64,000 nt of DNA, taken from Lutibacter sp. A64. Its GTDB lineage: Bacteria; Bacteroidota; Bacteroidia; Flavobacteriales; Flavobacteriaceae. The stretch spans positions 2,126,001-2,190,000 of the forward strand of contig NZ_CP092487.1 of NCBI RefSeq assembly GCF_022429565.1. The letters are read 5' to 3'. Below are positions 3,788 through 18,969 of this stretch, piece by piece (the first letter of the stretch is position 1; each line of letters begins with the position of its first letter). Position numbers and translations under genes: made by a program. The notes below the pieces were generated by a model. The model saw nothing but the letters and a program-made list of their open reading frames with translations. It was not told the DNA's origin and did not search any database.

Positions 3788-5743
3788 TTAACTCCATTTC
3801 ATTCGTTGCAATCTAACCGCATTTAAAATAGCTAATAAAGCTACACCTACATCTGCAAATACAGCTTCCCACATTGTTGCTAAACCACCTGCTCCTAGAA
3901 TTAAAACAATAGCTTTAACACCAAAAGCTAATATGATATTCTGCCATACAATTTTACGAGTAGAATGACTTATTTTAATGGCTTTTACCACTTTTGAAGG
4001 TTGGTCGGTTTGAATAATAACATCTGCTGTTTCAATAGCAACATCACTTCCCAAACCACCCATAGCAATACCTACATCACTTGCTGCTAAAACTGGTGCA
4101 TCGTTAATACCATCACCAATAAAAGCTATTTTATTTTCAGGGTTTCTCTTTAAAGTTTCAACTTCATTTAATTTATCTTCTGGCAATAAACCACCTCTGG
4201 CCTTTTCAATATTTAATTCAATTGCTATTTGTTGGGTAATAGAATCTTTATCACCTGAAAGCATCATTATATTTTTAATACCTACTTTATGCAATGCTGT
4301 AATTGTTTCTTTAGCATCTTCTTTTAATTCATCTGCAATTACAACATAACCTGCGAATTTATTATCGATAGCTACCAAAACAATGGATTCTACAATAGCT
4401 TCTGTTTCAGTTGGAACATCTATGTTATTTGTATGCATTAAGGCTTTATTTCCAACTAAAACTATTTTACCATTCACAATGCCTTTTAATCCTTTTCCTG
4501 CAACTTCAGATACTTCTAATGCTTTAAAATCTTTTCCAACTTCTTTATACTCCATTATGGCTTTTGCAATAGGGTGTGTGGATTGTTCTTCCATAGCCAT
4601 TAGGAATTTCATAAATTCAGATTCTTCCCAGCCAACAGTCTTTATTTCCTTAATTTTGAAAACACCTTTGGTAACAGTTCCTGTTTTATCCATTACCAAT
4701 GTATTTATTTTGGTCATAGCATCTAAAAATGAAGCACCTTTAAATAATATTCCATTTTTTGAAGCTGCACCTAAACCTCCGAAATAACCCAATGGGATAG
4801 ATATTACCAAAGCACAAGGGCAAGAAATTACCAAGAAAATTAATGCTCTGTATAACCAATCTCTAAAAATATAATCCTCTACAAAAAAATAAGGTAGAAA
4901 TGTAACAGCAATTGCTAAATACACTACAATTGGTGTATAGATACGTGCAAATTGTCTAATGAACAATTCTGTTTTCGATTTACGTGCTGTAGCATTTTGA
5001 ACTAAATCTAATATTCTGGCAATTGAACTATCTTCAAACTTGTTTGTTACCTCAACTTCTATCACACTTTCTAAATTGATACTACCTGCATATACTTTTG
5101 CGTTTTTTGTAATCGTATCTGGTTTACTTTCACCTGTTAAAGCTGCGGTATTTAATGAGGCCTTTACTGATAGTAAAATACCATCTAAAGGAATTTTTTC
5201 GCCAACACGAATTTGAATTTTTTCGCCAATATTTACGTCTTCTGGTGAAACACTTGTATAATCACCATTCCGAAAAACGTTAGCTTCTTTTGGTCTGACA
5301 TCTAATAATGCTTTGATATTTCCTTTGGCTCTTTTAACAGCAGCTCCTTGGAATAATTCTCCAACTGCATAAAATAGCATTACTGCTACTCCTTCAGGAT
5401 ATTCACCAATAACAAATGCTCCAATTGTAGCAATAGACATTAAAAAGAACTCTGTAAATACATCTCCTTTTTTAATGCTTTTCCAACCTTCTTTAACCAC
5501 GGGAAATCCAACAGGCAAGTATGCAATTCCATACCAATTTATACGTAACCAATCTTTGAAAAAAGCTACATTAAAATAATCTAAAGCTATTCCGATCATA
5601 AGCATTAAAAAGCTTACGATTGCAGGGAAATAAATTTTGAAAGTAGCACTATTTACAATGCCGTGGTTATGACCATCATTGTGACTATGCTGCTTTGTAG
5701 ATTTTGGCTTTAAATCTCTTAAATTGACTTTCTTTTTTTTCAT
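3788..5743 (-). CDS. zntA: P1B-2 heavy-metal translocating ATPase (Zn/Cd/Pb export)
   Basis: ATP-driven exporter of divalent soft metals across the inner membrane. Visible are a His-rich cytoplasmic N-terminus (QHSHNDGHNHG, residues 18-28), the transmembrane metal motif SCPCALV (about 308), the phosphorylated Asp in DKTGT (about 351), the HP motif STHPIA (about 384) and GDGINDAP (about 544). The last helices carry a Lys (FGVKAIVL) and Asp (FADVGVALL) as in the P1B-2 group, which supports Zn/Cd/Pb rather than Cu. At 651 residues it is short because the usual N-terminal HMA domain is absent and replaced by the His stretch. It follows the methyltransferase-like gene with a gap of about 30 bp, so the two are probably one transcript. 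Confidence 0.92.
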   Translation of the reverse strand: MKKKKVNLRDLKPKSTKQHSHNDGHNHGIVNSATFKIYFPAIVSFLMLMIGIALDYFNVAFFKDWLRINWYGIAYLPVGFPVVKEGWKSIKKGDVFTEFFLMSIATIGAFVIGEYPEGVAVMLFYAVGELFQGAAVKRAKGNIKALLDVRPKEANVFRNGDYTSVSPEDVNIGEKIQIRVGEKIPLDGILLSVKASLNTAALTGESKPDTITKNAKVYAGSINLESVIEVEVTNKFEDSSIARILDLVQNATARKSKTELFIRQFARIYTPIVVYLAIAVTFLPYFFVEDYIFRDWLYRALIFLVISCPCALVISIPLGYFGGLGAASKNGILFKGASFLDAMTKINTLVMDKTGTVTKGVFKIKEIKTVGWEESEFMKFLMAMEEQSTHPIAKAIMEYKEVGKDFKALEVSEVAGKGLKGIVNGKIVLVGNKALMHTNNIDVPTETEAIVESIVLVAIDNKFAGYVVIADELKEDAKETITALHKVGIKNIMMLSGDKDSITQQIAIELNIEKARGGLLPEDKLNEVETLKRNPENKIAFIGDGINDAPVLAASDVGIAMGGLGSDVAIETADVIIQTDQPSKVVKAIKISHSTRKIVWQNIILAFGVKAIVLILGAGGLATMWEAVFADVGVALLAILNAVRLQRMKWS

Positions 5744-5772
5744 TATTATTCTAAATTCTTCAAATTAAATAT

Positions 5773-6357
5773 TTATATCCAACGTCTTACTTTTTTTGCA
5801 TACTCTAAATAATCATTTCCAAATTCTTGTTTTAAGAATGCTTCTTCTAATCTAATTTGGGTATTTATACTTGTTGTTGATAATGCGATTATTACTAATG
5901 TAAAAGCGTTTGGAATCACTAAAAACAATCCAATATTTGCAATCATAATCCCAAGGAAAATGGGGTTTCTTGAAATCGAAAACAATCCTTTGGTAACTAA
6001 CGATGTCTTGTTTTTTTCATCTATTCCAATTCTCCAAGAATTGGCCATATTAGATTGAGCAATCCATACTACAATTAGCGAAAGAATTAAGAGTCCCCAG
6101 CCTGTTTTTAATAAAGTAACACTTTCTAAATACCAAAAAGGGAGTAAATATTTGTACCAATCAAATTTAAAAGCATAAATACTTACAATAATTAGCTCTA
6201 AAAAAGAGATCAAAGTAAATACTTTACCATTATAACCGTGTGCATCATCTGTTTTGTTAAAAGTTAAAGGGTTTACTCTAGTTTTTATAAAGAGTGAAAC
6301 TGACCTTATTACAAAAACTAGCAGAAAATATATTAGTAAGTAAATAAATAAAATCAT
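5773..6357 (-). CDS. isoprenylcysteine carboxyl methyltransferase-like membrane protein
   Basis: A polytopic membrane protein of about 194 residues. An upstream in-frame TTG exists, but the ATG directly after it is the better start. The second half has the ICMT/PEMT-type SAM-binding core: SRNPIFLGIMIANIG (about residues 130-145) and the ending EEAFLKQEFGNDYLEYAKKV followed by RRWI. Members of this family in metal-resistance clusters have no defined substrate. It begins an operon with the P1B-2 ATPase, and a palindrome shared with the CzcA operon overlaps its predicted promoter, which argues for a role in the metal response; the reaction is unknown. Confidence 0.75.
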   Translation of the reverse strand: MILFIYLLIYFLLVFVIRSVSLFIKTRVNPLTFNKTDDAHGYNGKVFTLISFLELIIVSIYAFKFDWYKYLLPFWYLESVTLLKTGWGLLILSLIVVWIAQSNMANSWRIGIDEKNKTSLVTKGLFSISRNPIFLGIMIANIGLFLVIPNAFTLVIIALSTTSINTQIRLEEAFLKQEFGNDYLEYAKKVRRWI

Positions 6358-6381
6358 CAAATTATAATTGCATATTCAAAG

Positions 6382-6389
6382 CAAATATG
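6382..6389 (-). promoter_or_regulatory. putative -7 element of the methyltransferase/P1B-ATPase operon
   Basis: On the minus strand this reads CATATTTG, one base from the Bacteroidota -7 consensus TAnnTTTG, 24 bp upstream of the start codon. A TTG inside the upstream palindrome (6405-6407) could be the -33 element, with the short 15-bp spacing also seen at the other palindrome-bearing promoter. Confidence 0.45.
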
Positions 6390-6400
6390 CTGAAAAAACA

Positions 6401-6419
6401 AATGCAATGGAAGTGCATT
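6401..6419. promoter_or_regulatory. palindromic operator, copy 2 (candidate Fur-family site)
   Basis: AATGCAATGGAAGTGCATT: arms AATGCA/TGCATT around a 7-bp centre. It matches 15 of 19 positions of the palindrome at 12835-12853, in the same orientation relative to the downstream gene. It overlaps the last two bases of the Fur-like gene and the -33 region of the next operon. Confidence 0.55.
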
Positions 6420-6834
6420 AATGACCGCTACATTTATCACAAATCCCTTTTACCACCAAGTTTACATTTTCTGCAACAAAACCATCAGGTACTTTAATTT
6501 GAGGAATTTTATGAGCTGTAAGGCATACTGTTTCATTGCAATTGTTACAATGGAAATGTAAGTGTAAATCATTTTCAATTTCACAATTACATCCTTTTTC
6601 ACATAATGCATACTTTGTAATACCTGTACCATCATCTATTTGATGTACGATTCCTTTTTCTTCAAATGTTTTAATAGTTCTGTATAATGTAGTTCTATCT
6701 GACTTTTCAAAAGCATTTTCGATATCACTTAATGTTACAGCAACATCCTTTTCTACAAGAAACTTATAGATAAGTAATCGCATTGCTGTAACACGTATAT
6801 TTTTAGATTCTAATAATTCCTCTATTGTTTTCAT
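6418..6834 (-). CDS. Fur-family metalloregulator
   Basis: A 138-residue transcriptional regulator of the Fur/Zur superfamily. Residues 1-85 form the winged helix, with DRTTLYRTIKTFEEKGIVHQ as recognition helix and wing. The C-terminal dimerisation domain has HLHFHC, a structural zinc site CNNC (about 95-98) and a second CDKC near the end, as in four-Cys Fur proteins. An additional CEKGCNC precedes the His cluster. It is the last gene of the unit that begins with the DUF6660-like gene and lies 3 bp behind the adaptor gene. Its location between two operons that share a promoter palindrome suggests that it represses both. The sensed metal (Zn most likely) is inferred. Confidence 0.88.
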   Translation of the reverse strand: MKTIEELLESKNIRVTAMRLLIYKFLVEKDVAVTLSDIENAFEKSDRTTLYRTIKTFEEKGIVHQIDDGTGITKYALCEKGCNCEIENDLHLHFHCNNCNETVCLTAHKIPQIKVPDGFVAENVNLVVKGICDKCSGH

Positions 6835-6837
6835 TAT

Positions 6838-8037
6838 TTAATGTTCGTGTTCTGCTTCGCCTTTTTTCATTTCAGCAATCAGGTAATAAGCATTATTATA
6901 AGCAAATTTTGTGGTTTTATCTAATTCTTCAGTAAATTGAACTGCAATCCAATTGCCATCTTTTGCACCTAAAAGCACTTCAACAGGTTTAAAACTCCAG
7001 TGGTCATTTTCTTTTTCTACTGAAAATGCATAAAACCTATCTCCATCTTTTATAATTGCACTTTCAGGTAATGCTTTTGTTTTAGTTTTATTTACCTGAA
7101 TTTTACCTTGAATGTACATACCAGGAATTAAGTTATCTCTTTTATTTTCAATTTCAGCGTGAACGTGTACCGCTTTTGGGTTGTCTTCAAATGTTTTACT
7201 TATTGAAAAGATTTCAGCTGTAAGTTCTGTATTTGGAATAGACTGCACTGTAAATGTCACTTTTTGACCTTTTTTTACTTTATAGGCATCTTTTTCAAAC
7301 ACCATTAAATCTGCGTGAACGTGAAGCGTATTAACAATTTCGAATAATTCTGTTTGCGGCTCTACATATTGCCCAATTTTCACCTGAACCTTTTGTACAA
7401 ACCCTTCTATAGGACTACGTAATGATATACTTTGTGCAATTGTACCATTTCTTACTGATATTGTATTGATATTTAATATTCTTAATTGAGCTTCCAATCC
7501 ATTTACCATAGCTTTTGATGCTTCATACTCGGCTTCTGCTTTTTGAAAATTTGCACCAGAACCAACACCTGCATCATATAATTTTTGTTGACGCTCATAG
7601 TTTTTCTTTAAAAAATTACTATTGCTAAAAGCATTCAAATAATCAGTCTGTAGTTTTATAATATTAGGGTGTGATAGATAGGCCACAACTTGGCCTTTAT
7701 TAACTTTATTACCTTCAATTACTTTTATAGATACTACATTTGCACCAATAACTGAAGTTATTGCTGCTTCGTTTTGTGGGGGTACTTCTAATGTACCATT
7801 AGCCTCTACATTTCCACTCATATTTCGTAATGAAAGTGTGTCAATCTTCATTTTTAATGCATTATACTGCTGCTGCGAAAGCATTACTTCTTCGTTCTCA
7901 CCGTGTTCTTCTTCATTTTTTGGTTTTTCACTATGTGAATGACCATCATTGTCACTATGACTTTCTTTGTTTCCGCAAGCAAAAACAGTAATGGATAACA
8001 CTAGAGCAGTTAGGATTTTATATAATTTATTTTTCAT
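6838..8037 (-). CDS. czcB: RND efflux periplasmic adaptor (CzcB/CusB-like membrane fusion protein)
   Basis: A 399-residue lipoprotein: hydrophobic N-terminus ending TVFACGNKE (lipobox Cys about 21), then a His/Glu-rich stretch of about 30 residues (SHSDNDGHSHSEKPK...) likely to bind metal. The core shows the MFP pattern: barrel-sandwich strands (ANGTLEVPP, SVIGANVVSIKVIEGNKV), a helical hairpin (about 120-190), the second lipoyl half (SIEGFVQKV-like RSPIEGFVQKVQVKIGQYV) and beta-barrel domains, with a His/Glu end. It links the inner-membrane pump to the outer-membrane channel. It directly follows the pump-channel fusion gene (4-bp gap) and precedes the Fur-like regulator. Confidence 0.92.
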   Translation of the reverse strand: MKNKLYKILTALVLSITVFACGNKESHSDNDGHSHSEKPKNEEEHGENEEVMLSQQQYNALKMKIDTLSLRNMSGNVEANGTLEVPPQNEAAITSVIGANVVSIKVIEGNKVNKGQVVAYLSHPNIIKLQTDYLNAFSNSNFLKKNYERQQKLYDAGVGSGANFQKAEAEYEASKAMVNGLEAQLRILNINTISVRNGTIAQSISLRSPIEGFVQKVQVKIGQYVEPQTELFEIVNTLHVHADLMVFEKDAYKVKKGQKVTFTVQSIPNTELTAEIFSISKTFEDNPKAVHVHAEIENKRDNLIPGMYIQGKIQVNKTKTKALPESAIIKDGDRFYAFSVEKENDHWSFKPVEVLLGAKDGNWIAVQFTEELDKTTKFAYNNAYYLIAEMKKGEAEHEH

Positions 8038-8041
8038 TTTC

Positions 8042-11000
8042 TTATTGATTAAAATATTGTAGTTGAAATGTGCTTTCTAAATAGTTTATTAAAGCTGTTT
8101 GTGCATCTAGCTCGGATTGAATGGCTTCTTTTATTAATTGTGTGAAGCTAGTGTATTCTATTTCGCCTTCTTTGTACGCCAGTAAAGCACCTGTTTTTTG
8201 TTCCTTTGTTAATGGCAATACCTGGTTTTTGTAAAATTCCCAAGAGTTTTTCCATTTGATATAATTTTCTTTAGCCTGAACAAATTTTGATTGTACTTCT
8301 TGCTTTTTGAATTGGACATTGGCTTCGGCTATCTCTTTATCAATTTTGGTACTTCTAATTTGTGCTTTGTTAGTACCAGACAAAAACGGAATGGAAATAC
8401 CTGCTTGATAACTGTAAAACCCAGAAGTTCCTTCTACTTTTTGTAAACCACCTTGAAGATTGAATTTTGGTAAATTATCAGCTTTTGCTACTTTATAATT
8501 GGCTGCTGCTTCATCTACAATGTTCTGCGACATACTGTACAACGGATGGTTTTCAATATTGAACTTTTCAATGTTTAAATCTATTGCAGAATCAAATTCA
8601 TCAGAAACAGTAAAAATTTCATCTGAAACCAACCATAAATTTAATTGCTGTAGAGCGATTAGATAATCACTATATGCTTGCATTTTTTTATTTTGAATTT
8701 GAAAAGCTTGGTTTTTAGCGGCTGAATATTCTAATCTTGAAATCGCTTCTACTTCATAATTTAACGCAACAGCTTGTTCGAAATTGGAATAAATGGAATC
8801 CAATTCCATATAAAGATTATAGTTTCTCTTCATCTGATAACATTTTGACCAGGCCTTTTTAACTTCTAATTCTAATTCTAATACAGAAAGTTGATAAGCT
8901 TTTTGTGCTAATTGTACTCGTTGTTTTTGTAACTTCCTCTTTGAACCAATACCAAAAATATTTATATCGGATTGACCAATACCAATGGTTGTGTAGACTC
9001 CTTCATCTCCATTAATTTCTTCACCACCTGTAAAGACTTCAGTTGTACCTAAATCATAAGCAGTAGCTTTTAATTGTTCCTGTTTTGTGATTTCTAACTG
9101 TTTTTGCTTTAACAATGGGTAATTCCTTTTAGATAGTTTTACCGCATCCATTAAGGTTATTTCTGGAAGTGTATTGTTTATCTGTTGTGCATTACTTTGT
9201 TCAGAAACACCAAACATTAAAAGCAAAACTGCTGTTGCTGTAACCAACTTTTTATTCGGAATAAATTTAAACGATTTGTTTTCTACCCAATGGTATAAAA
9301 TTGGTAAAACGAATAAGGTTAGTAATGTAGAAGTTAATAAACCACCAATAACAACAGTTGCTAGTGGGCGTTGAACTTCTGCTCCGGCAGATGCCGAAAT
9401 CGCCATAGGTAAAAAGCCTAATACATCTGTAAAAGCTGTTAGCATAATTGGTCTTATTCTTCGTTTTGTACCTTCAATAATTCTATCTTTAAGGTTGGTA
9501 ACACCCTCTTCTTTTAATTCATTCAAACCACTAACCATTACCAATCCATTTAAAACTGCAACCCCAAATAGTACTATGAAACCAACACCTGCTGAAATAC
9601 TAAATGGCATATCTCGTAACCATAAAGCTACAACACCACCAATGGTTGCCATAGGAATAGCTATGTAAATCATTAAAGTTTGTGGCAATGATTTCAATGC
9701 AAAATAAATTAACACAAATATTAGTAATAGTGCAATAGGTACAACCGTTTGTAATCGGTTACTTGCACGTTCCAAATTCTCAAAAGCACCACCATAACGA
9801 ATGAAATAACCAGATGGTAATTCTAATTGTGCATCTAATTTTGATTTTATTTCATTTACTAATGATTTTACATCGCGACCTCTCACATTTACACCTACAT
9901 AAGTTCTTCTGTTTGTGTTATCTCTACTAATTTGCATTGGTCCTGCTTTATAACTTACATCAGCTATTTCACGCAGTGGAATTTGAGTTCCCGAAGGTAG
10001 GTTGATGTACAAGTTTTGGACATCTGAAATATCTTTTCGGTTTTGAGAATTTAAACGAACTACTAAATCAAAACGTTTTTCACCTTCAAAAATAACACCT
10101 GCTATACCACCTGCAAATGCTGATTGTACTGTTTGATTTAAGGTATTTATATGAAGACCGTACTGTGCTAATTTATTTCTATTGTAATTAATAGTCATTT
10201 GTGGTAAACCTGTTGTGGCTTCTGCTTTCATATCACCAATACCTTCTGTACCTGCAATAATTTTGGATATTTCTTCGGCTTTTTGGGATAAGATGTCAAT
10301 GTCTTCCCCATATAATTTTATGGCAATATCTTCACGCACACCTTCAAGTAATTCATTAAAACGCATTTCAATAGGTTGGGTAAACTCATAATTAACACCT
10401 GGAACTATTTCAACAGCTTCTTTCATCATCTCTATCAATTCATCTTTTGAAGTTGTTGTGGTCCACTCACTTTTAGGCTTTAGAATTACAAAAACATCTG
10501 CTAAATCCATTGGCATTGGGTCTGTTGGAATTTCAGCTACACCAATACGACTAACTATTTTTTCAACTTCCGGAAATTTAGCTTTTACAATTTGCTCTAT
10601 TTTTGTAGTTGTTTCAATGGTTTCTGTAAGTGAACTTCCTGGTTTTAATATGGCGTGAAATGCAATATCACCTTCATCAAGCTGCGGAATGAACTCACCA
10701 CCCATTTTTGTAAACATAAAAACTGCAATTGCGAATAGCACAACTGCACTACCTATAATCCACTTTCCTTTTTGTAATGCTCTTTCCAATAAAGGTAGGT
10801 ATTTGTCTTCTACCCATTGTACAAATTTATCTCCATAAGATTTTTTATTGTTTTTTGGAGCTCTTAACACTAGTGCAGACATCATTGGTACATAGGTAAG
10901 ACAAAGCACCATCGCTCCAATCATAGCGAAAATGAAAGTCATAGCCATTGGTTTGAACATTTTTCCCTCAATACCTTGTAAAGCCAAAATTGGAAGAAAA

Positions 11001-12376
11001 ACAATAAGAATAATGAGCTGACCAAAAAATGCAGCATTCATCATCTTTTTAGAAGCATTAGAAGCTACTTTGTCACGTTCTTTTGCTGTAAGACTCTTCT
11101 TTTTTAATATTTGGGATGTAATTAAGAATACTGTACTCTCCACAATAATTACAGCACCATCTACAATAATCCCGAAATCAATAGCTCCCAAACTCATTAA
11201 ATTTGCCCAAACATCAAATACATTCATCAATATAAATGCAAATAATAATGATAATGGAATTGTTGAGGCTACTATTAAACCACCTCGCCAATTACCTAGT
11301 AAGAAAATAAGAACAAATATTACTATTAAAGCACCTTCAACAAGATTATTTGAAACTGTAGAGGTTGTTTCTCCAATTAATTTACTTCTGTCTAACAATG
11401 ATTCAATAATAATTCCTTCAGGTAATGACTTTTCTATTTGAGCCATTCGCTCTTTTACACTGTTAATAACATTATTGGAATTAGCACCTTTAAGCATCAT
11501 CACCAATCCACCTACAACTTCGCCTTCACCATCTTGAGTTAATGCACCATAGCGAATTGCAGCACCAAATTGAACTGTCGCAATATCACCAATAGTTACT
11601 GGAATATTATTAACGTTTTTGACTGTTATTTTTTTAATGTCTTCTAAACTACGCACCAAGCCTTCTCCACGAATAAAATTTGCTTGATGGTTTTTTTCAA
11701 TGTAAGCACCACCTGTATTTTGATTGTTAGCTTCAAGTGCATTAAATACATCTGTAATAGTTAAACCAATAGCGTTTAAATCGTTTGGATCAACAGCTAC
11801 TTCGTATTGTTTAATTTTACCACCAATGGCATTTACTTCAACCACACCTTCTACCATAGCCATTTGTCGCTGTACAATCCAATCTTGCATAGAACGTAGG
11901 TCTGCAATACTATATTTGTCTTTAAACTCTGGTGCTACTTTTAATGTATACTGGTAAATCTCTCCTAATCCAGTTGAAATAGGTCCCATTGATGGTTCAC
12001 CAAAACCTGCAGGAATTTGTTCTTTAACTTCGTTTAGTTTTTCTGCTACTAATTGTCGAGGTAAATATGTTCCCATATCATCGTCGAACACAATAGTAAC
12101 AACCGATAAACCAAAACGAGAAATAGATCTAATTTCCTGTACATTTGGAAGGTTGCTCATTGCTACTTCAATTGGGTAGGTTACAATTTGTTCAATATCT
12201 TCTGTACCTAAATTTGGGGCTTGTGTAATAACCTGTACTTGGTTATTGGTAATATCTGGAACAGCATCGATGGGTACTTGGGTCATACTCCATATACCTG
12301 CTCCAATAATGGTAAGCGTAAGCAAACCAATTATAAATTTGTTATTGATTGAAAAATCAATGATTTTATTAATCAT
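8042..12376 (-). CDS. czcA: CzcA-type RND metal pump fused to a TolC-family outer-membrane channel
   Basis: A 1444-residue protein. Residues 1 to about 1035 are a complete HME-RND pump; TM4 carries AIDFGIIVDGAVIIVES with the two Asp and the Glu of the CzcA proton relay (about 402-415), so Zn/Co/Cd is the likely substrate class. After the last RND helix (TLFVLPILYHWVENK) comes a stretch that looks like a signal peptide, NKKLVTATAVLLLMFGVSEQ followed by SNAQQ (about 1042-1062). Then follow about 380 residues of TolC/CusC type with two repeated long-helix halves (PEITLMDAVKLSKRNYPLLK; QAGISIPFLSGTNKAQI). The reading frame is continuous through the junction. Such fusions occur in other Flavobacteriia. 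How an inner-membrane pump and outer-membrane barrel are handled as one chain (cleavage or bridging) is not known from the sequence. Confidence 0.92.
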   Translation of the reverse strand: MINKIIDFSINNKFIIGLLTLTIIGAGIWSMTQVPIDAVPDITNNQVQVITQAPNLGTEDIEQIVTYPIEVAMSNLPNVQEIRSISRFGLSVVTIVFDDDMGTYLPRQLVAEKLNEVKEQIPAGFGEPSMGPISTGLGEIYQYTLKVAPEFKDKYSIADLRSMQDWIVQRQMAMVEGVVEVNAIGGKIKQYEVAVDPNDLNAIGLTITDVFNALEANNQNTGGAYIEKNHQANFIRGEGLVRSLEDIKKITVKNVNNIPVTIGDIATVQFGAAIRYGALTQDGEGEVVGGLVMMLKGANSNNVINSVKERMAQIEKSLPEGIIIESLLDRSKLIGETTSTVSNNLVEGALIVIFVLIFLLGNWRGGLIVASTIPLSLLFAFILMNVFDVWANLMSLGAIDFGIIVDGAVIIVESTVFLITSQILKKKSLTAKERDKVASNASKKMMNAAFFGQLIILIVFLPILALQGIEGKMFKPMAMTFIFAMIGAMVLCLTYVPMMSALVLRAPKNNKKSYGDKFVQWVEDKYLPLLERALQKGKWIIGSAVVLFAIAVFMFTKMGGEFIPQLDEGDIAFHAILKPGSSLTETIETTTKIEQIVKAKFPEVEKIVSRIGVAEIPTDPMPMDLADVFVILKPKSEWTTTTSKDELIEMMKEAVEIVPGVNYEFTQPIEMRFNELLEGVREDIAIKLYGEDIDILSQKAEEISKIIAGTEGIGDMKAEATTGLPQMTINYNRNKLAQYGLHINTLNQTVQSAFAGGIAGVIFEGEKRFDLVVRLNSQNRKDISDVQNLYINLPSGTQIPLREIADVSYKAGPMQISRDNTNRRTYVGVNVRGRDVKSLVNEIKSKLDAQLELPSGYFIRYGGAFENLERASNRLQTVVPIALLLIFVLIYFALKSLPQTLMIYIAIPMATIGGVVALWLRDMPFSISAGVGFIVLFGVAVLNGLVMVSGLNELKEEGVTNLKDRIIEGTKRRIRPIMLTAFTDVLGFLPMAISASAGAEVQRPLATVVIGGLLTSTLLTLFVLPILYHWVENKSFKFIPNKKLVTATAVLLLMFGVSEQSNAQQINNTLPEITLMDAVKLSKRNYPLLKQKQLEITKQEQLKATAYDLGTTEVFTGGEEINGDEGVYTTIGIGQSDINIFGIGSKRKLQKQRVQLAQKAYQLSVLELELEVKKAWSKCYQMKRNYNLYMELDSIYSNFEQAVALNYEVEAISRLEYSAAKNQAFQIQNKKMQAYSDYLIALQQLNLWLVSDEIFTVSDEFDSAIDLNIEKFNIENHPLYSMSQNIVDEAAANYKVAKADNLPKFNLQGGLQKVEGTSGFYSYQAGISIPFLSGTNKAQIRSTKIDKEIAEANVQFKKQEVQSKFVQAKENYIKWKNSWEFYKNQVLPLTKEQKTGALLAYKEGEIEYTSFTQLIKEAIQSELDAQTALINYLESTFQLQYFNQ

Positions 12377-12416
12377 AGAAAAGGTGTTAATTCAGTTAAA
12401 CTTTTTGATTCAATTC

Positions 12417-12465
12417 TTCTAATAAAATTAGAATTACTCGAGTTGAAAAGAACCTTTAAAGGTTC
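12417..12465. promoter_or_regulatory. two inverted repeats in the DUF6660-to-czcA gap
   Basis: TTCTAAT-AAA-ATTAGAA (12417-12433) is followed by the perfect 16-bp palindrome GAACCTTTAAAGGTTC (12450-12465). Both lie in the 123-bp gap upstream of the pump gene. They could be an operator or transcript-processing hairpins; neither has a U-tract that would make it a clear terminator. Confidence 0.4.
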
Positions 12466-12499
12466 AAAATTGGATATAATTATCCTAGATAAAACTGAA

Positions 12500-12811
12500 T
12501 TATGCCCTTGGAGGCTGTAAAATAGAAGTAGAATAATTTGTTTCTAAACCGTTTAGGTAGAAGAAATTTTGAGTATAATAATTATTTACATCAAGTTTTG
12601 TATAAGTGAATTGAAACTGTATTACATTAATATGACAACAATGACACATACAAAAAGGGGAGCATAAATCTGAATCTTGATGTTGATGCTCGTCACCATT
12701 AGTTTGTGAAATTTCTGTTTTAACATTATCATCAATTTCACTATTATCTACACAAGGTGTAAAATTAAGTGCGAGAATATAAATTGATAATATGAATGCT
12801 ATAAATTTCAT
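12500..12811 (-). CDS. small exported His/Cys-rich protein (DUF6660-like)
   Basis: 103 residues with a signal peptide (MKFIAFILSIYILALNFTPC), an acidic/His segment (GDEHQHQDSDL), a dense Cys cluster (CSPFCMCHCCHIN) and the C-terminus ILQPPRA. This resembles the Bacteroidota DUF6660 family found next to metal-efflux genes. Its function is unknown; the C/H cluster suggests periplasmic metal binding. It is the first gene of the CzcA operon, preceded by a TAnnTTTG promoter and the palindrome at 12835-12853. Confidence 0.7.
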   Translation of the reverse strand: MKFIAFILSIYILALNFTPCVDNSEIDDNVKTEISQTNGDEHQHQDSDLCSPFCMCHCCHINVIQFQFTYTKLDVNNYYTQNFFYLNGLETNYSTSILQPPRA

Positions 12812-12930: not shown

Positions 12931-12960
12931 TTTGATTTTAGGAAGATAATGCTATATTTG
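12931..12960 (+). promoter_or_regulatory. consensus Bacteroidota promoter of the small RNA
   Basis: TTTG (12931-12934), 18 bp, then TATATTTG (12953-12960): a full match to the TTTG / TAnnTTTG promoter pattern on the plus strand. No ORF follows; a short structured sequence and a terminator do. Confidence 0.75.
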
Positions 12961-12962
12961 AG

Positions 12963-13040
12963 TATTAGGTTTTCATAGGCCTAATCTTTTTCATAGCAAT
13001 TTTTTTTAACCCACTTCTCTTGAAGTGGGTTTTGTTTTTT
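12963..13040 (+). ncRNA. small RNA of about 75-80 nt next to the integrative element
   Basis: Begins just after a consensus promoter and ends at a strong intrinsic terminator. The 5' hairpin has stem ATTAGG/CCTAAT (12964-12969, 12980-12985) and the 10-nt loop TTTTCATAGG. A second copy of TTTTCATAG lies in the single-stranded linker (12988-12996). The terminator hairpin follows. TTTTCATAG is the complement of CTATGAAAA, a translation-start sequence; matches to the starts of three genes of the adjacent element are described in the findings. CTnDOT of Bacteroides encodes a comparable small RNA, RteR, that restrains transfer; homology is not claimed. Exact ends are inferred. Confidence 0.7.
13008..13040 (+). 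terminator. strong rho-independent terminator of the small RNA
   Basis: AACCCACTTC-TCTT-GAAGTGGGTT gives a 10-bp GC-containing stem with a 4-nt loop followed by TTTGTTTTTT. It is preceded by T-rich sequence, so it is directional for the plus strand. Confidence 0.85.
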
Positions 13041-13109: not shown

Positions 13110-13784
13110 TTATTTTCTTTTATCAATTGAGTTTTCATCAAAGCTAATTAAATTAAACATTGTTCTCATTCTGCTTCTCACCCTGTTTCCGTAACGTTTT
13201 TCAATTTCTTGCGCGTTGAGGTTCGTGGTTATGTGGGTTAACACCTTCTGACTGCGTTCAGGATTACGCATAAATAAATCGTAACGAGAGAGCAAGATTT
13301 CACCTAATACATTGCACTCTTTTGCGTAGTGGCTACCTGTTGGTTCTACTCCTAAATCATCGAAACAATAGTTTTGAGTTTGATTGTATTTTTCAAAAAC
13401 AGCATAACCTTTTGCATTGAAATTGAAAACAATATTCCTGGAGGGAATGAGTTCGTAATTAGTTTTGTGTGGCGCTAGATGTAAAAGTAATTTCATTAGT
13501 GATGTTTTTCCACAACCTACTGGGCCAGATAGTAATAATCCTTTATTGGTGTCTATTCCCATTTGTGCACAACTATAATGATCCTGGATAAAGTAATTGC
13601 ATAGTTTGAAAAGTAGAGGTTCGTCTTCATTGTAGATTTTGAAATTTTTACCGAATAGTATGTGACCTTTGATGTTGAGGTAGGTTTTTATTTTTTCAAA
13701 ATCGTAATGGACTGTGTTGTTTCTTATTTCTCCTATTTGGAATTTTGATGTTCCTTCGATTTTTATGTGTGGTTGTGGTTTCAT
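13110..13784 (-). CDS. DnaC/IstB-like P-loop ATPase of the integrative element
   Basis: 224 residues with Walker A GPVGCGKTS (about 88-96), Walker B CFDDLG (about 138-143), a sensor segment THITTNLNAQEIEKRYGNRV and an Arg-rich box (RSRMRTMF). This is the pattern of AAA+ helicase loaders (DnaC) and of IstB-type transposition helpers. With no IstA-like transposase nearby and a DnaD-like protein directly upstream, a helicase-loading role in replication of the excised element is the better reading. It is the last gene of the HTH-DnaD-ATPase series. Confidence 0.75.
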   Translation of the reverse strand: MKPQPHIKIEGTSKFQIGEIRNNTVHYDFEKIKTYLNIKGHILFGKNFKIYNEDEPLLFKLCNYFIQDHYSCAQMGIDTNKGLLLSGPVGCGKTSLMKLLLHLAPHKTNYELIPSRNIVFNFNAKGYAVFEKYNQTQNYCFDDLGVEPTGSHYAKECNVLGEILLSRYDLFMRNPERSQKVLTHITTNLNAQEIEKRYGNRVRSRMRTMFNLISFDENSIDKRK

Positions 13785-13807
13785 AGTTTTTATTTTCCAA
13801 ATGATGA

Positions 13808-13833
13808 GATTCCTGCCTACGCAGAAATGACAG
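13808..13833. repeat. REP-like palindromic repeat, copy 2
   Basis: GATTCCTGC-CTAC-GCAGAAATGACAG: imperfect hairpin in the 53-bp gap between the DnaD-like and ATPase genes, followed by ATGAC as in the other copies. Translated on the minus strand it gives FLRRQESHH, a typical artefact of this repeat type. Confidence 0.6.
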
Positions 13834-13837
13834 AATC

Positions 13838-14509
13838 TTATAAAGGTTCGTTATAGTTTTTGTTTTGGTTGGTGTGGAGGTTGTCTTGAAAATGGTCAAG
13901 TGGTAAATCTGTGTTTTGATTTGTTTTTGATTCTTTTCGTTTTGAAATAGTAAATTCGTCTATTTTTAACATCCAACTCTCTGCTGCAGCTTGCCAATTT
14001 TCAATTGGATTGTTTCCTTTTTTCCATCCTACAGATTCGTAGTAATTGAAAAATTTTTCTGCTTCTTTTTCTGACCAATCCTTTTTTTTAAAAAAATTGA
14101 AAACCTTTTTTAGAGAGAGAGGTTTATTTATGTTTATAGTATGTTTATTAATGTTTATATTAGATACCAGCGCTTGTTCATTTATGGTAGAGTCTAAATA
14201 CAAATCTTGCTTATCACTTGTACTGAAATTAAACAACTTCACTTTACTGCCTTTAAACGGATTGTGAGAAGGACTATAAATAATGTATTTCCAATGACTT
14301 AACTCTTTAATACAACGATGATATGTTGTGTTAGAACCGATTTTAGAAAACTTCATAACTTCTTCTCGATTTATATAAAATTCATCTGGAAATCGATTGT
14401 AATTCCAAATCTGAAATAAAGCAATATATAGGCTAATATGTGTTGGATTTAAACGAGTATCTTTTGAAAATTGATGAAAGATACCGTTGAGATGTTTTAT
14501 GTAATTCAT
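13838..14509 (-). CDS. DnaD-like replication protein of the integrative element
   Basis: 223 residues. The N-terminal part looks like a winged-helix DNA-binding domain (HISLYIALFQIWNYNRFPDE ... REEVMKFSKIGSNTTYHRCI). The C-terminal part (about 140-190) has the DnaD/DnaT-like pattern FFNYYESVGWKKGNNPIENW followed by AAAESWM. Such proteins work with DnaC-type loaders in phage and plasmid replication initiation; here the loader-like ATPase follows directly. The start codon context is CCTATGAAT. The assignment rests on motif pattern only. Confidence 0.6.
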   Translation of the reverse strand: MNYIKHLNGIFHQFSKDTRLNPTHISLYIALFQIWNYNRFPDEFYINREEVMKFSKIGSNTTYHRCIKELSHWKYIIYSPSHNPFKGSKVKLFNFSTSDKQDLYLDSTINEQALVSNININKHTININKPLSLKKVFNFFKKKDWSEKEAEKFFNYYESVGWKKGNNPIENWQAAAESWMLKIDEFTISKRKESKTNQNTDLPLDHFQDNLHTNQNKNYNEPL

Positions 14510-14525
14510 AGGCTCTAAATAGTAA

Positions 14526-14550
14526 GATTCTGAACAGGTTCAGAATGACG
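14526..14550. repeat. REP-like palindromic repeat, copy 3
   Basis: GATTCTGAAC-AG-GTTCAGAATGACG, a 9-bp perfect stem, in the 47-bp gap between the HTH and DnaD-like genes. It resembles copies 1 and 2 in layout. Confidence 0.6.
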
Positions 14551-14556
14551 TTATTC

Positions 14557-14835
14557 TTAAAATTTGTTATGAATACTGTTTTCTTTCATTACGTTTTCAA
14601 TTTCTTCTGCATCGTAGAAAATGATCCCTCCAATTTTTGTGTACGGTAGTGTTCCGTTAATTCTTAAAGTTTGAAGTGTTCCCGGACTTACTTTCAATAT
14701 TTTCATTAATTCTGCTGATTTTAAATATTTTTTTTGAGGTGCAGCAGTTGTTTTTTGAAGTAAACTTTTAATGTCATCTAATAGTTCAATTTTAAACTCT
14801 CTTAAATCATCAGTTGTTATAATTTGTGTTGGCAT
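14557..14835 (-). CDS. excisionase-like helix-turn-helix protein
   Basis: 92 residues with a MerR/HTH_17-type domain in the second half: KSAELMKILKVSPGTLQTLR followed by INGTLPYTKIGGIIFYDAEEI. This form is common for excisionase/regulator genes in Bacteroidota mobile elements. It lies upstream of the replication-like genes and downstream of a long control region. A 13-bp sequence found 37 bp upstream of its start recurs inverted 36 bp upstream of the integrase start, so this protein or a partner may control both. Confidence 0.75.
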   Translation of the reverse strand: MPTQIITTDDLREFKIELLDDIKSLLQKTTAAPQKKYLKSAELMKILKVSPGTLQTLRINGTLPYTKIGGIIFYDAEEIENVMKENSIHNKF

Positions 14836-14918
14836 TGATTAAGTATTTTTTAAATTAATAATTGTTTATAGCGATTTGACTTTCGTGCTACAAAGCTTAA
14901 AAGTTTTATTGAGAATCT

Positions 14919-14944
14919 TTAGGTAGTCATTAGGTAGTACCTAA
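14919..14944. promoter_or_regulatory. TTAGGTAGT box pair 1 with palindrome
   Basis: Two copies of TTAGGTAGT 11 bp apart (14919-14927, 14930-14938); the second forms the palindrome TTAGGTA-G-TACCTAA. One helical turn between copies suggests that a protein binds one face of the DNA. Confidence 0.5.
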
Positions 14945-15070
14945 AAAATTTAACATTTTAAAAATTTTAACTTACTGAATGACAAGAGTTTAAAAACTTT
15001 GCATTTTAAAAAAAGTTAGAATTTATAATCACACTGGATTCAATTTCAATAAAAAGGTATGTTTATAAAT

Positions 15071-15110
15071 AAAAAGAGATGATTTTTTAATAAAAAATCA
15101 TCTCTTTTTT
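15071..15110. terminator. bidirectional A/T hairpin terminator behind the rteC-like gene
   Basis: AAAAAGAGATGATTTTTT and its exact complement flank a 4-nt loop, with T-runs on both strands. It lies 92 bp downstream of the rteC-like stop and would end the int-rteC transcript. Confidence 0.75.
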
Positions 15111-15116
15111 TCAATT

Positions 15117-15136
15117 TTAGGTAGTCGTTAGGTAGT
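15117..15136. promoter_or_regulatory. TTAGGTAGT box pair 2
   Basis: Two copies of TTAGGTAGT with the same 11-bp spacing as pair 1, separated by CG. It lies between the terminator and the end of the rteC-like gene. Confidence 0.5.
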
Positions 15137-15201
15137 CCTATTTATTATAGAACATATAAAAACCATAACCAACACTAAAACAGTAATTTAACAACAATAC
15201 T

Positions 15202-16047
15202 TTAATTAGATTCAATTCTATTAATGAGTCCAATTTTTAAAGAATCTATAAATTTTGTTTGATCTTTCTCTCTAGCTTTAATTTGCTCAAAAACTTTATA
15301 AATATTACCTAATTCAATTTCAAAAAGTAGTTCAATTACATTTTTAATTTTTTTTAGTTCTGCTCTTCCATTTCTTAAAACACCTGACTCTTTTAAAGCG
15401 AAAATTAATTCAACTAAATCCGTTTTAGTTCCTGTCCAATTTAGATCTCTTAAAATGGCTGGTTTAACCTCTTCGATAACTACATCATTTGATTTCTTGT
15501 TTTTAAGTATTTTCAACTCGTTAGAAAAAAATGCAATTAATAAATCGTGTGCAATAATTTTTGATACAAGGTAATCGTGACTGGTTGTAAATTCCGGATC
15601 TTTAAAGTGATGCGAGCTATCGATAAATAAATCTAATTGTTCGATATCTCTTAAAAAATAAAGGTGGTCTAGTTTATCTTCTTTTAACCTATAATACTTT
15701 ACAAATTCCAACTGTTTCCATTTTCTCCTATCTAACCTATCAAGTTCATTGCTAATGTACTTCTGTTGTTTTGAGTTACCAGAAATTGGTTTTTCAAGTA
15801 AATAATTATGTAACCATTTAAAGTACTGGAGTCTCCCTTCTACATACGGTTTTTGATATTTAAAAAATGTTATTTCTTCTTTTTTTGAAGGGAATTTTTT
15901 AGTCCTTACAAGTGTGCTAAATTCATTTAGACACGTTCTTGAAAGTACAATACCTTGTTTTAAAATTGTTAGATCTTTTAAATTAGATTTTTCAATTAAT
16001 ACAATAGATTTTTTATACCGATTAAAGGCAATAGTAGTTTTTTTCAT
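15202..16047 (-). CDS. RteC-family regulator
   Basis: 281 residues. The family pattern is clear: EEITFFKYQKPYVEGRLQYF at about 58-77, and in the C-terminal half LNWTGTKTDLVELIFALKES, GRAELKKIKNVIELLFEIELG and KFIDSLKIGLINRI. RteC proteins are regulators first described in Bacteroides conjugative transposons, where RteC activates the excision operon. The gene follows the integrase by 56 bp on the same strand. An 11-bp inverted repeat in the gap reaches its start codon and may limit translation. Confidence 0.85.
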   Translation of the reverse strand: MKKTTIAFNRYKKSIVLIEKSNLKDLTILKQGIVLSRTCLNEFSTLVRTKKFPSKKEEITFFKYQKPYVEGRLQYFKWLHNYLLEKPISGNSKQQKYISNELDRLDRRKWKQLEFVKYYRLKEDKLDHLYFLRDIEQLDLFIDSSHHFKDPEFTTSHDYLVSKIIAHDLLIAFFSNELKILKNKKSNDVVIEEVKPAILRDLNWTGTKTDLVELIFALKESGVLRNGRAELKKIKNVIELLFEIELGNIYKVFEQIKAREKDQTKFIDSLKIGLINRIESN

Positions 16048-16097
16048 ATAGGTTTTTCAATTTTTTTAAGCATTTAAAAATAAAAAAAAAACCTATA
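16047..16097 (-). promoter_or_regulatory. inverted repeat spanning the int-rteC gap
   Basis: TATAGGTTTTT (16047-16057) and AAAAACCTATA (16087-16097) form an 11-bp perfect stem with a 29-nt loop. On the minus-strand mRNA the distal arm overlaps the first base of the rteC-like start codon, so the hairpin could mask initiation. Confidence 0.5.
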
Positions 16098-16103
16098 AAT
16101 TAG

Positions 16104-17372
16104 TTAGCTGTTAGATTTCTTCTGAACTACTTCTGAACCTTGCTCTGATTTGGTATTTAATAACACTTTTAAAGCATTCATATCATCACTTACTTTTCTT
16201 TCAATTACTCTAGCATAAATTTGAGTTGTAGCAATTTTTGTGTGTCCTAAAATTTTAGAAACGGTTTCAATTGGAACGCCATTTGTTAGCGTTACTGTAG
16301 TTGCAAATGTATGGCGCGCCATATGAAATGTTAGGTTCTTTTTAATCTTACAAGCATCTGCTATTTCTTTTAAATAACTATTTAATTTTTGATTTGATAA
16401 CGCAGGAAAAACGGTACCATTTAGAGCTGCTCTTTCATTATTTCTGTATTTATCAATTAAGTATTGAGCTTGGTCTAGTATTGGTATTTTCACTGGTGTA
16501 TTTGTTTTTTGTCTTTTGGTAATTATCCATTTATTACCATCAATCCCAAAAACCACATTGTCTTTTTTAAGCTTCATAATATCAACATATGCAATACCTG
16601 TGTAGCTGCTAAAAATAAAAAGATCCTTTACTAAATCTAAACGTTCAATATCTGTGCTATAGTTTTCAATACTTTCAAGTTCTTTTTTTGATAAAAACTC
16701 ACGTTCCTTTTTAATAAATGAAGGTTTATATTTAACAAATGGGTCTCTTTCTATCCATTCCATATGAAAGGCCATAGTTACCATTTTTCTTAAGCGTTGA
16801 ATGTGTTTTATGATGGTATTATTACCTATTCTTTTCTTATTTCTTGAAAGTTTATAGCCTCTTAAGAAATTGTCAAATTGCACAACAAATGAATAATTTA
16901 GGTCTCTCAAGTAAATATCTGAAGTTTTGTATTCTTTCAGTACGAACTCCATTAAATAACTCTGGGTAGTTTTATAAAGGCCAAGTGTGGCTTTATTTAA
17001 CTTGTGAGCAAAATTAGTATTATGATAATCAATAATATTTTGAAGCGAATAATATTGTTGGTCGGTTCCTAAAAATCGAGCTTTAATAGCTTCAGCTGTT
17101 ATTAATTTTCTTTCATTAACTAATTCCTGGTATGCTTTGAAAATTGAAGCTTGTGTTTGGTCAATATAATTATTGATAACTCTAGCCTCTTGACTGTTTC
17201 CTTTAATTTTGGATTTAGATTTATCCCAAGATTCTAAAAGAACTTTTCTTTTTAGGCTAATATTAACTCGTTTCTGATTAACCGTAATTCTTGCGAATAA
17301 ATCCGCTTCGTTATTTTTGGCACGTGAAGCATTAATCCAAATTAGGATTGAAAAAGTGTTTTGGGTTTTCAT
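16104..17372 (-). CDS. int: tyrosine recombinase (integrase), CTnDOT-like family
   Basis: 422 residues. An N-terminal Arm-type domain is followed by a core-binding domain (about 120-210) and a catalytic domain. Visible catalytic residues are HMARHTFA (His and Arg, about 347-354), LGHTKIATTQIYAR (His and nucleophilic Tyr, about 375-388), and a likely Lys in TKRQKTN. Box I reads SYTGIAYVDIMKL, with no Arg at the usual TGLR position, as in IntDOT of Bacteroides. Located about 335 bp from the 3' end of tRNA-Ser and transcribed away from it, it is the probable enzyme of integration and excision. A hairpin CGTCTTT/AAAGACG (17379-17410) lies just before the start codon. Confidence 0.9.
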   Translation of the reverse strand: MKTQNTFSILIWINASRAKNNEADLFARITVNQKRVNISLKRKVLLESWDKSKSKIKGNSQEARVINNYIDQTQASIFKAYQELVNERKLITAEAIKARFLGTDQQYYSLQNIIDYHNTNFAHKLNKATLGLYKTTQSYLMEFVLKEYKTSDIYLRDLNYSFVVQFDNFLRGYKLSRNKKRIGNNTIIKHIQRLRKMVTMAFHMEWIERDPFVKYKPSFIKKEREFLSKKELESIENYSTDIERLDLVKDLFIFSSYTGIAYVDIMKLKKDNVVFGIDGNKWIITKRQKTNTPVKIPILDQAQYLIDKYRNNERAALNGTVFPALSNQKLNSYLKEIADACKIKKNLTFHMARHTFATTVTLTNGVPIETVSKILGHTKIATTQIYARVIERKVSDDMNALKVLLNTKSEQGSEVVQKKSNS

Positions 17373-17604: not shown

Positions 17605-17707
17605 TTATTTAATGAATTTAAATCAATATATCTGTTAACTCCTAAAATTCAAAACCCCGTAAAACCTATGGTTTGCTGTGTTTTGATTCAATTTGTGTTC
17701 ATTTTCG

Positions 17708-17792
17708 CAGAGAGGAAGGGATTCGAACCCTCGATACGTTGCCGTATACACGCTTTCCAGGCGTGCGCCTTCGACCACTCGGCCACCTCTCT
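17708..17792 (-). tRNA. serT: tRNA-Ser (anticodon GGA)
   Basis: 85 nt on the minus strand: acceptor stem AGAGAGG/CCTCTCT with discriminator G, D-arm GGCCGAGTGG, anticodon loop CTGGAAA, long variable arm TATACGGCAACGTATC as in class II tRNAs, and T-arm GAGGGTTCGAATCCCTT. CCA is not encoded. The 5' end is only 5 nt after the rimM stop, so it is probably cut from the rpsP-rimM transcript. Its 3' end faces the integrase, a classical integration target. Confidence 0.97.
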
Positions 17793-17797
17793 AAAAT

Positions 17798-18328
17798 TTA
17801 ATTATTTAGATATAAGTCTATCAATCCTGCAGGAGATTCAACAATAATTTTGTTTTTTCCTCTATCTACTTTCTTAATAAAATCATCTATCATCGGTATA
17901 AAGACATCTACGCCATTAGAATTAACTTCAAATAATGGCTGTGCTGAAGAATCATTAACTCCAGTAATTACACCCACATATCCGTAATTAACATCTTCTA
18001 AGTCGAAACCAATTATTTCGTGAAAGTAAAATTTATTTCCTGTTAGTTTTGGAAGAAACTCCAAAGGTAAGTACAATTCTGAGCCTAATATGGCATCAGC
18101 ATCTTCTTCGCTTGCAACATCTTCAAATTGTATCCTTAATTGATTTCCTTTTTGAAGTAAACTTTCTTCAATAAAAAAAGGAACCAGATCGCTGCCTAAG
18201 GCAACAAATACTGATTCCAATTTTGTATAAAGTTCTGGTTCATCTGTATCCAATTTGGCTACAACCTCACCTTTAAAGCTATGTTTTCTAACGATTTTGC
18301 CTAAATAAAAACAATCTTCTTTACGCAT
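17798..18328 (-). CDS. rimM: 16S rRNA maturation factor RimM
   Basis: 176 residues. It assists assembly of the 30S head domain and binds S19. The N-terminal barrel begins DCFYLGKIVRKHSFKGEVVA; the C-terminal PRC-barrel includes YFHEIIGFDLEDVNYGYVGV and ends EVNSNGVDVFIPMIDDFIKK followed by GLIDLYL. It lies 12 bp behind rpsP, the usual bacterial pair, and is followed directly by tRNA-Ser on the same strand. Confidence 0.95.
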   Translation of the reverse strand: MRKEDCFYLGKIVRKHSFKGEVVAKLDTDEPELYTKLESVFVALGSDLVPFFIEESLLQKGNQLRIQFEDVASEEDADAILGSELYLPLEFLPKLTGNKFYFHEIIGFDLEDVNYGYVGVITGVNDSSAQPLFEVNSNGVDVFIPMIDDFIKKVDRGKNKIIVESPAGLIDLYLNN

Positions 18329-18919: not shown

Positions 18920-18969
18920 TTTGTTTTAATTTTTAAGGTTCTCGACCTTGGTTATAAATTTTAAGTTTG

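Follow-up and report, generated by a model that had tools for sequence, protein, structure and literature searches.

Does a short RNA gene carried on an integrative element pair with the start codons of that element's own genes? The question is raised by a locus in the 64,000-nucleotide stretch of the Lutibacter sp. A64 genome analysed here (the window), where the original prediction had placed a promoter, a hairpin, a linker and a terminator beside a block of element genes and had proposed that the hairpin loop is antisense to their translation starts.

An RNA gene next to an integrative element

All four parts of the RNA gene were found where they had been placed, and its arrangement TTG-N18-TATATTTG is what we take to be a Bacteroidota-type promoter. 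The RNA gene and the neighboring element genes are arranged as follows.

12932..12960, + strand: Bacteroidota-type promoter, TTG (12932-12934), 18 nt, then TATATTTG (12953-12960)
12964..12985, + strand: 5' hairpin from the fold, stem ATTAGG/CCTAAT, loop UUUUCAUAGG (also given as TTTTCATAGG)
12986..13003, + strand: single-stranded linker CTTTTTCATAGCAATTTT, which defines the family by sequence conservation among copies
13008..13040, + strand: intrinsic terminator call, hairpin (13008-13031) and T tract
12960..13035, + strand: whole RNA, full-length match to covariance model R1 (44.5 bits, E 2.3e-6)
13110..13784, - strand: AAA ATPase of the element (weak ATPase matches), start CTATGAAA
13838..14509, - strand: DnaD-like protein of the element (label from the original prediction, no Pfam match), start GCCTATGAA
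14557..14835, - strand: helix-turn-helix (HTH) protein of the element (PF12728)
15202..16047, - strand: RteC-family regulator of the element (PF09357, E 1.8e-64)
16104..17372, - strand: tyrosine integrase, int (PF00589), start CTATGAAAACC, complementary to the RNA loop over 11 nt
17707..17792, - strand: tRNA-Ser(GGA) adjoining int

The RNA gene is convergent with, and 3' of, the gene for the ATPase, which we take to be DnaC-like. Model R1 was built without the window copy. The window RNA folds with a z score of -6.6 against shuffled versions, none of 200 shuffles being equally good. The locus probably encodes a small RNA of ~75 nt, which would be transcribed from this promoter and would act in trans. 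The proposal that the loop is the anti-start segment was upheld in part: its motif is common to loop and linker, but the minimum free energy (MFE) fold narrows the loop to 4 nt through G-U and U-A pairs, leaving it only partly open and the linker as the open segment. The linker, rather than the loop, is also the best conserved part of the RNA.

Homologues of the element ATPase were found in 25 of 38 Lutibacter genomes. The int-rteC-HTH-DnaD-ATPase block (window 13110-17372) is 100% identical (rounded, protein level) to those of three further Lutibacter genomes (L349, L350 and L351 in G011, G009 and G008), and this identity across four genomes suggests recent horizontal transfer. The tRNA-Ser(GGA) gene beside int is likely where the element is attached; a search of the window for repeats of at least 14 nt matching 17661-17800 found none. 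Adjoining the block, window positions 3788-12811 encode an AcrB-family pump, an HlyD-like protein and a DUF6660 protein, all identified by Pfam, together with a P-type ATPase and a Fur-like protein recognized by eye; these are probably metal-resistance cargo. At 8042-12376 the AcrB-family pump and an outer-membrane efflux protein are fused in a single 1444-aa frame (PF00873 and PF02321). Elsewhere in the window, 18925-18959 is an S16-Flavobacteria ribosomal protein leader (RF03138).

Structure and distribution of the RNA family

The window RNA is one copy of a family with the signature linker CTTTTTCATAGCAATTTT and no Rfam match, which the sequence comparisons below indicate is almost certainly real. 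A DNA search of the Lutibacter sp. A64 genome returned the linker at three further exact places, with the same layout and other stems. In all 24 sampled Lutibacter genomes and the own genome the linker 18-mer was matched two to nine times each with at most one mismatch, compared to 0 or 1 match per strand for reversed-pattern controls in Lutibacter genomes; at least one Lutibacter match (L062) has no RNA structure. The promoter box TAnnTTTG is present in the 70 nt preceding the linker in 123 of 152 distinct full-context copies; a 5' fold at or below -4 kcal/mol was obtained for 142 and a terminator for 140. The 119 copies that pass a filter for a terminator and a promoter-like box (30-46 nt ahead of the linker) have a median z of -4.8 for the 5' part (116/119 below -1.5), and their linker core, CAUAGCAA, is unpaired in 93 of the 119 MFE folds. 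In 16 of 191 copies, some of them related to one another, TTCATAG recurs in the 36 nt that precede the linker, where shuffled 7-mers gave a mean of 0.5 and a maximum of 9.

The original prediction had proposed a covariation analysis of homologues, and the compensatory stem changes it revealed are strong. When 24 copies were aligned with MAFFT and the consensus structure was derived from that alignment itself (A2), two helices have 97.5% of cells paired, with 40 double-change cells versus 10 in shuffles (reached by 0/500), and slid versions score far lower. The second set, aligned by fitting to the model, consists of 57 R1-selected copies, one per genome, taken from the best-scoring matches, 20 of the lowest listed and seven from an order-level search, so that weaker matches are mostly unsampled. 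Here pairing holds in 97.8% of cells, and 99 double-change cells compare with 21 in shuffles (0/500). All six pairs of helix 1 vary, with 97.1% of cells still paired. An exact linker is present in 55 of the 57 copies, R1 itself being derived from copies that all had this exact sequence.

R1 matched 182 of 199 sampled Flavobacteriaceae genomes, representing 181 of 198 genera, with a single match in 167 of the 182; 16 of the 17 genomes that it missed are smaller than 3 Mb. Order-level and phylum-level samples gave matches in 16/146 and 12/198 genomes, every one in Flavobacteriaceae, the number of genomes from outside that family being only partly listed for these samples. In all 57 copies examined dnaJ lies directly upstream on the same strand, with the linker 57-276 nt past dnaJ, and a natA-like ABC gene is present in 50 of the 57 stretches; in one locus (L178) the GrpE, DnaJ and ABC genes were confirmed by Pfam. 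Among the 152 pattern-selected copies dnaJ is the 5' neighbor of 117, and the core locus of the own genome reads dnaJ, RNA, RNase P RNA.

The RNA is patchy in genus g126, where R1 misses at least 12 genomes and which we take as Flavobacterium because the sequence of its locus L301 equals that of L188 (Flavobacterium sp. NRK F7). A one-mismatch linker pattern run on 28 g126 genomes yielded 30 fetched loci, with no hit to R1 at E 0.1 or lower; L301, from the same run, is an already known copy. A scan of named genomes returned at least 118 stretches with the linker, mostly Flavobacteriaceae by label. A structured copy (L185 5145-5219, 42.5 bits) occurs in a metagenome-assembled genome (MAG) labelled Saprospiraceae on an 8-kb stretch from which dnaJ is absent; this copy may be mobile, or the contig misbinned. 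The linker 18-mer also occurs, with weak R1 scores (E 0.03-0.16), in MAGs labelled Euryarchaeota, Bacillota and Bacteroidales. Tandem arrangements were also seen: three copies spaced 252 nt apart in Flavicella sediminum (L182 2456-3000), and GGTAAGTTTCATAGCTTACC-subclass copies 255-298 nt apart, each with a promoter-like box, in Lutibacter G021, G023 and G001 (L047, L056 and L060).

Copies are also found on mobile DNA. Exact linkers occur in 23 viral-contig stretches, 18 of which match R1 at E 0.01 or better, and the two viral contigs inspected (L068 and L073) encode phage-type recombination and nuclease genes. Starting from 55 matches to the element ATPase we read 41 element loci, comprising the window and 40 fetched stretches; the 14 matches set aside were weaker or partial, or were second copies at places already included. 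R1 matched 18 of the 41 loci with E no higher than 0.1, and 16 with E no higher than 0.01. These RNA copies lie 3' of the ATPase gene on the opposite strand. The view of the RNA as element-linked is thus true of a subclass (18/41 loci), but the RNA is not the element's own invention, being a copy of a host family present in 182/199 genomes. The motif UUUCAUAG stands in the hairpin loop in 12 of the 18 RNA-bearing loci (four of these 12 are near-identical, and one RNA is counted twice), and the stems around the kept loop change on both sides (TTAGG/CCTAA, GTAGG/CCTAC, ATAGG/CCTAT, GTAGA/TCTAC). Beyond the genus sample, L151 has the loop motif beside the same kind of ATPase. A Bacteroidetes MAG has a UUUCAUAG-loop copy (L175 2655-2729, minus strand) whose neighbors are an N6/N4 DNA methylase and a RhuM-family gene instead of the ATPase. 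Element copies L384 (6257-6347), L363, L360 and L357 seemingly have no usual 5' hairpin, L384 repeating the linker motif within its terminator, and seem to be decaying or rearranged.

Complementarity to translation starts

As predicted, GGTTTTCATAG (12968-12978) is antisense to the int start over 11 nt, with 9 nt for DnaD and 8 nt for the ATPase. By duplex energy among 85 gene starts of the own genome (51 from the window and 34 from fetched stretches), int ranked 1, DnaD 3, the ATPase 8, rteC 13 and HTH 80. The summed match of the element genes is reached by 0.24% of random five-gene sets and 0/500 shuffled RNAs, and their maximum match by 6% of gene sets and 5/500 shuffled RNAs. The accompanying caution that other starts also match was borne out, with non-element genes, including 44988-46895, in second and third place by length of match (10 nt).

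The starts of int, ATPase and DnaD in the element lineage are enriched for CTATG(AA), the complement of the RNA motif. At distinct starts CTATG was present in 32/40 ATPase, 20/23 int, 13/28 DnaD, 5/17 rteC and 1/30 HTH genes, compared to 19/196 background Lutibacter starts, a number inflated by loci picked for the 12-mer described below, and 10/156 without them. After removal of similar upstream regions the counts were 15/20, 5/8, 7/16, 3/9 and 0/11, respectively, versus 11/149 for a thinned background that still draws on the set containing the 12-mer-chosen loci, giving one-sided p values of 8e-11, 3e-4, 4e-4, 0.03 and 1. Since element loci share descent, these counts are not independent. Among ATPase relatives outside Lutibacter no R1 match lay beside the ATPase, and by eye CTATGAA was present at 1/26 and CTATG at 5/26 starts, the position of which is uncertain at several loci with differing N-termini (L407 and L414 are partial).

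The best explanation of these data is that the RNA would pair with start codons as an anti-start RNA, to which we assign a probability of about 0.5 from the sequence comparisons. This reading accounts for most of the results. Several results run against it. CTATG is as frequent at starts without a local RNA as at those with one (int, 12/13 versus 8/10; ATPase, 21/26 versus 11/14), so either host copies must do the work or the CT is simply inherited. Cognate co-variation was absent, match lengths for own versus swapped RNA-start pairs being 9.0/8.8 for int, 7.7/7.6 for the ATPase and 6.9/6.5 for DnaD. Perfect targets of the 12-mer TTGCTATGAAAA were not enriched in 25 Lutibacter genomes, where ~120 of 178 matches are RNA genes and the reversed control gave 54; in the own genome the sole non-RNA match is not a clear gene start. 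Among 41 of these matches listed and inspected, 18 are apparent true gene starts and five are internal, one (L247) is a decayed RNA copy, and no widely recurring ortholog was found, a ComF-like protein (by eye) appearing in three genomes. In addition, A/U-rich pairing cores of 7-11 nt are weak, and viral contigs that carry the linker have a lower share of CTATG starts than host loci (counts below).

These same results bear on a reading in which the RNA is real and its match to the starts incidental, with CT before ATG being inherited or a start-context preference and ATGAA simply common. We regard this as doubtful, though well within reach. The equal CTATG rates with and without a local RNA, the similar own and swapped matches, the restriction to a single element lineage and the presence of ATGAA at 88/196 background starts all fit it. 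Yet CTATG is kept where the 17 nt upstream have diverged (15/20 ATPase starts) and recurs across three separate genes, HTH excluded, and the start context of Flavobacterium johnsoniae, in the available part of its description, is an A at -3 and -6, with CT not named (PMC6847099).

Alternatively, the RNA might titrate a protein, with UUUUUCAUAGCAAUUUU and the loop copy binding an RNA-binding protein or a chaperone that replaces Hfq and the mobile copies serving as decoys, a logic for which CsrB is the model. An 18-nt run that is nearly fixed (55/57 exact) exceeds the length needed for seed pairing, the motif occurs twice, in loop and linker, and the lack of enrichment of perfect mRNA targets also agrees with titration. 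Viral contigs bear copies yet have few CTATG starts of their own, such starts being rarer in linker-bearing viral contigs (4/158) than in host loci (56/731; p 0.02). A protein-binding linker explains the length and constancy of the linker better than pairing does, but the start motif worse, leaving the motif complement at the element ATPase, int and DnaD starts unaccounted for; on balance we consider titration unlikely. That the locus is no small RNA at all, being just a terminator or leader in which a DNA motif recurs, or else an antisense-strand peptide gene (ATGAAAAAG...; by eye the opposite strand encodes MKKIRPMKT* across the window hairpin), is very improbable given the promoter-like box that precedes the linker by 30-46 nt in the 119 filtered copies and the compensatory changes in the 5' hairpin stem, which would alter such a peptide.

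Proposed mechanism and relation to known RNAs

In the anti-start mechanism, the window RNA would be a mobile-element copy of a Flavobacteriaceae-wide RNA composed of a housekeeping-type promoter, a 5' hairpin, the single-stranded linker CUUUUUCAUAGCAAUUUU and a terminator. Exposed UUUCAUAG, in the linker and, in the element subclass, also in the loop, would pair with mRNAs starting CUAUGAA and thereby block 30S binding. The int, ATPase and DnaD mRNAs of the element would be held down by the element RNA together with host copies, keeping the element quiet. Hfq would play no part; among 25 genomes we found no Hfq above the cut-off and one sub-threshold match. More broadly, and with confidence somewhat short of even, we suggest that the family may be a core Flavobacteriaceae riboregulator, co-located with grpE-dnaJ, that silences CUAUGAA starts without Shine-Dalgarno sequences or Hfq; elements and phages would have captured copies, and elements would have put their integration and replication genes under CUAUGAA, tying their activity to host and element RNA. 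The presence of the RNA at one syntenic place in about nine-tenths of sampled genera and its near-invariant 18-nt segment probably reflect a basic function. The family thus offers a route to ask how small RNAs find start codons without Shine-Dalgarno sequences and Hfq.

The family is apparently uncatalogued. Neither the window RNA nor 18 further loci reached the gathering score of any Rfam 15 model; the best sub-threshold match of the window RNA was tsr26 (32.1 bits versus 141, E 0.002), and the csRNA model (RF02379) gave 23.9 bits, below its gathering score of 57 (E 0.5). We found no published description of the RNA in the open literature searched, subscription journals and preprints being outside its coverage. 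Among known small RNAs, streptococcal csRNAs have, like the present family, two hairpins with an open linker, and CTnDOT of Bacteroides encodes RteC. LhrC of Listeria is also multicopy; it comes from another phylum and is not known to be related to the present family in sequence.

The CiaR-dependent csRNAs of streptococci are short RNAs present in several very similar copies, and the segment that these copies have in common is complementary to translation starts (PMC8186281); they resemble the flavobacterial RNA in this anti-start logic and in being multicopy. By contrast, the flavobacterial linker complements only AUG and its flanks, with no complement to a Shine-Dalgarno sequence, which is expected because the phylum is reported to lack Shine-Dalgarno sequences (PMC6847099). 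The flavobacterial RNA also belongs to another phylum and has a dnaJ-tied core copy as well as integrative-element and viral-contig copies. In Flavobacterium psychrophilum, 85 new RNAs were described, of which Rfp18 is widely conserved in the genus; like the present family the Rfp RNAs are conserved flavobacterial small RNAs, and they have expression evidence (PMC9723704). Rfp18 pairs through a third stem-loop (PMC9723704), whereas the dnaJ-linked family has two, and so, compared by description, it seems to be different. Another of the RNAs Rfp 1-89 may be a dnaJ-linked member, that is, an earlier detection of the family as an unnamed transcript.

Its copies on integrative elements and viral contigs hint that host and mobile DNA exercise control, or come into conflict, through this RNA. 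RteR, described as a 90-nt small RNA on the Bacteroides conjugative transposon CTnDOT (PMC7366714), is similar by analogy in that the window RNA also resides on an RteC-encoding element, with PF09357 in the same gene block. However, the target of RteR is the tra operon of the element that encodes it, while the window RNA is a host-family copy located 3' of the ATPase gene and not beside rteC.
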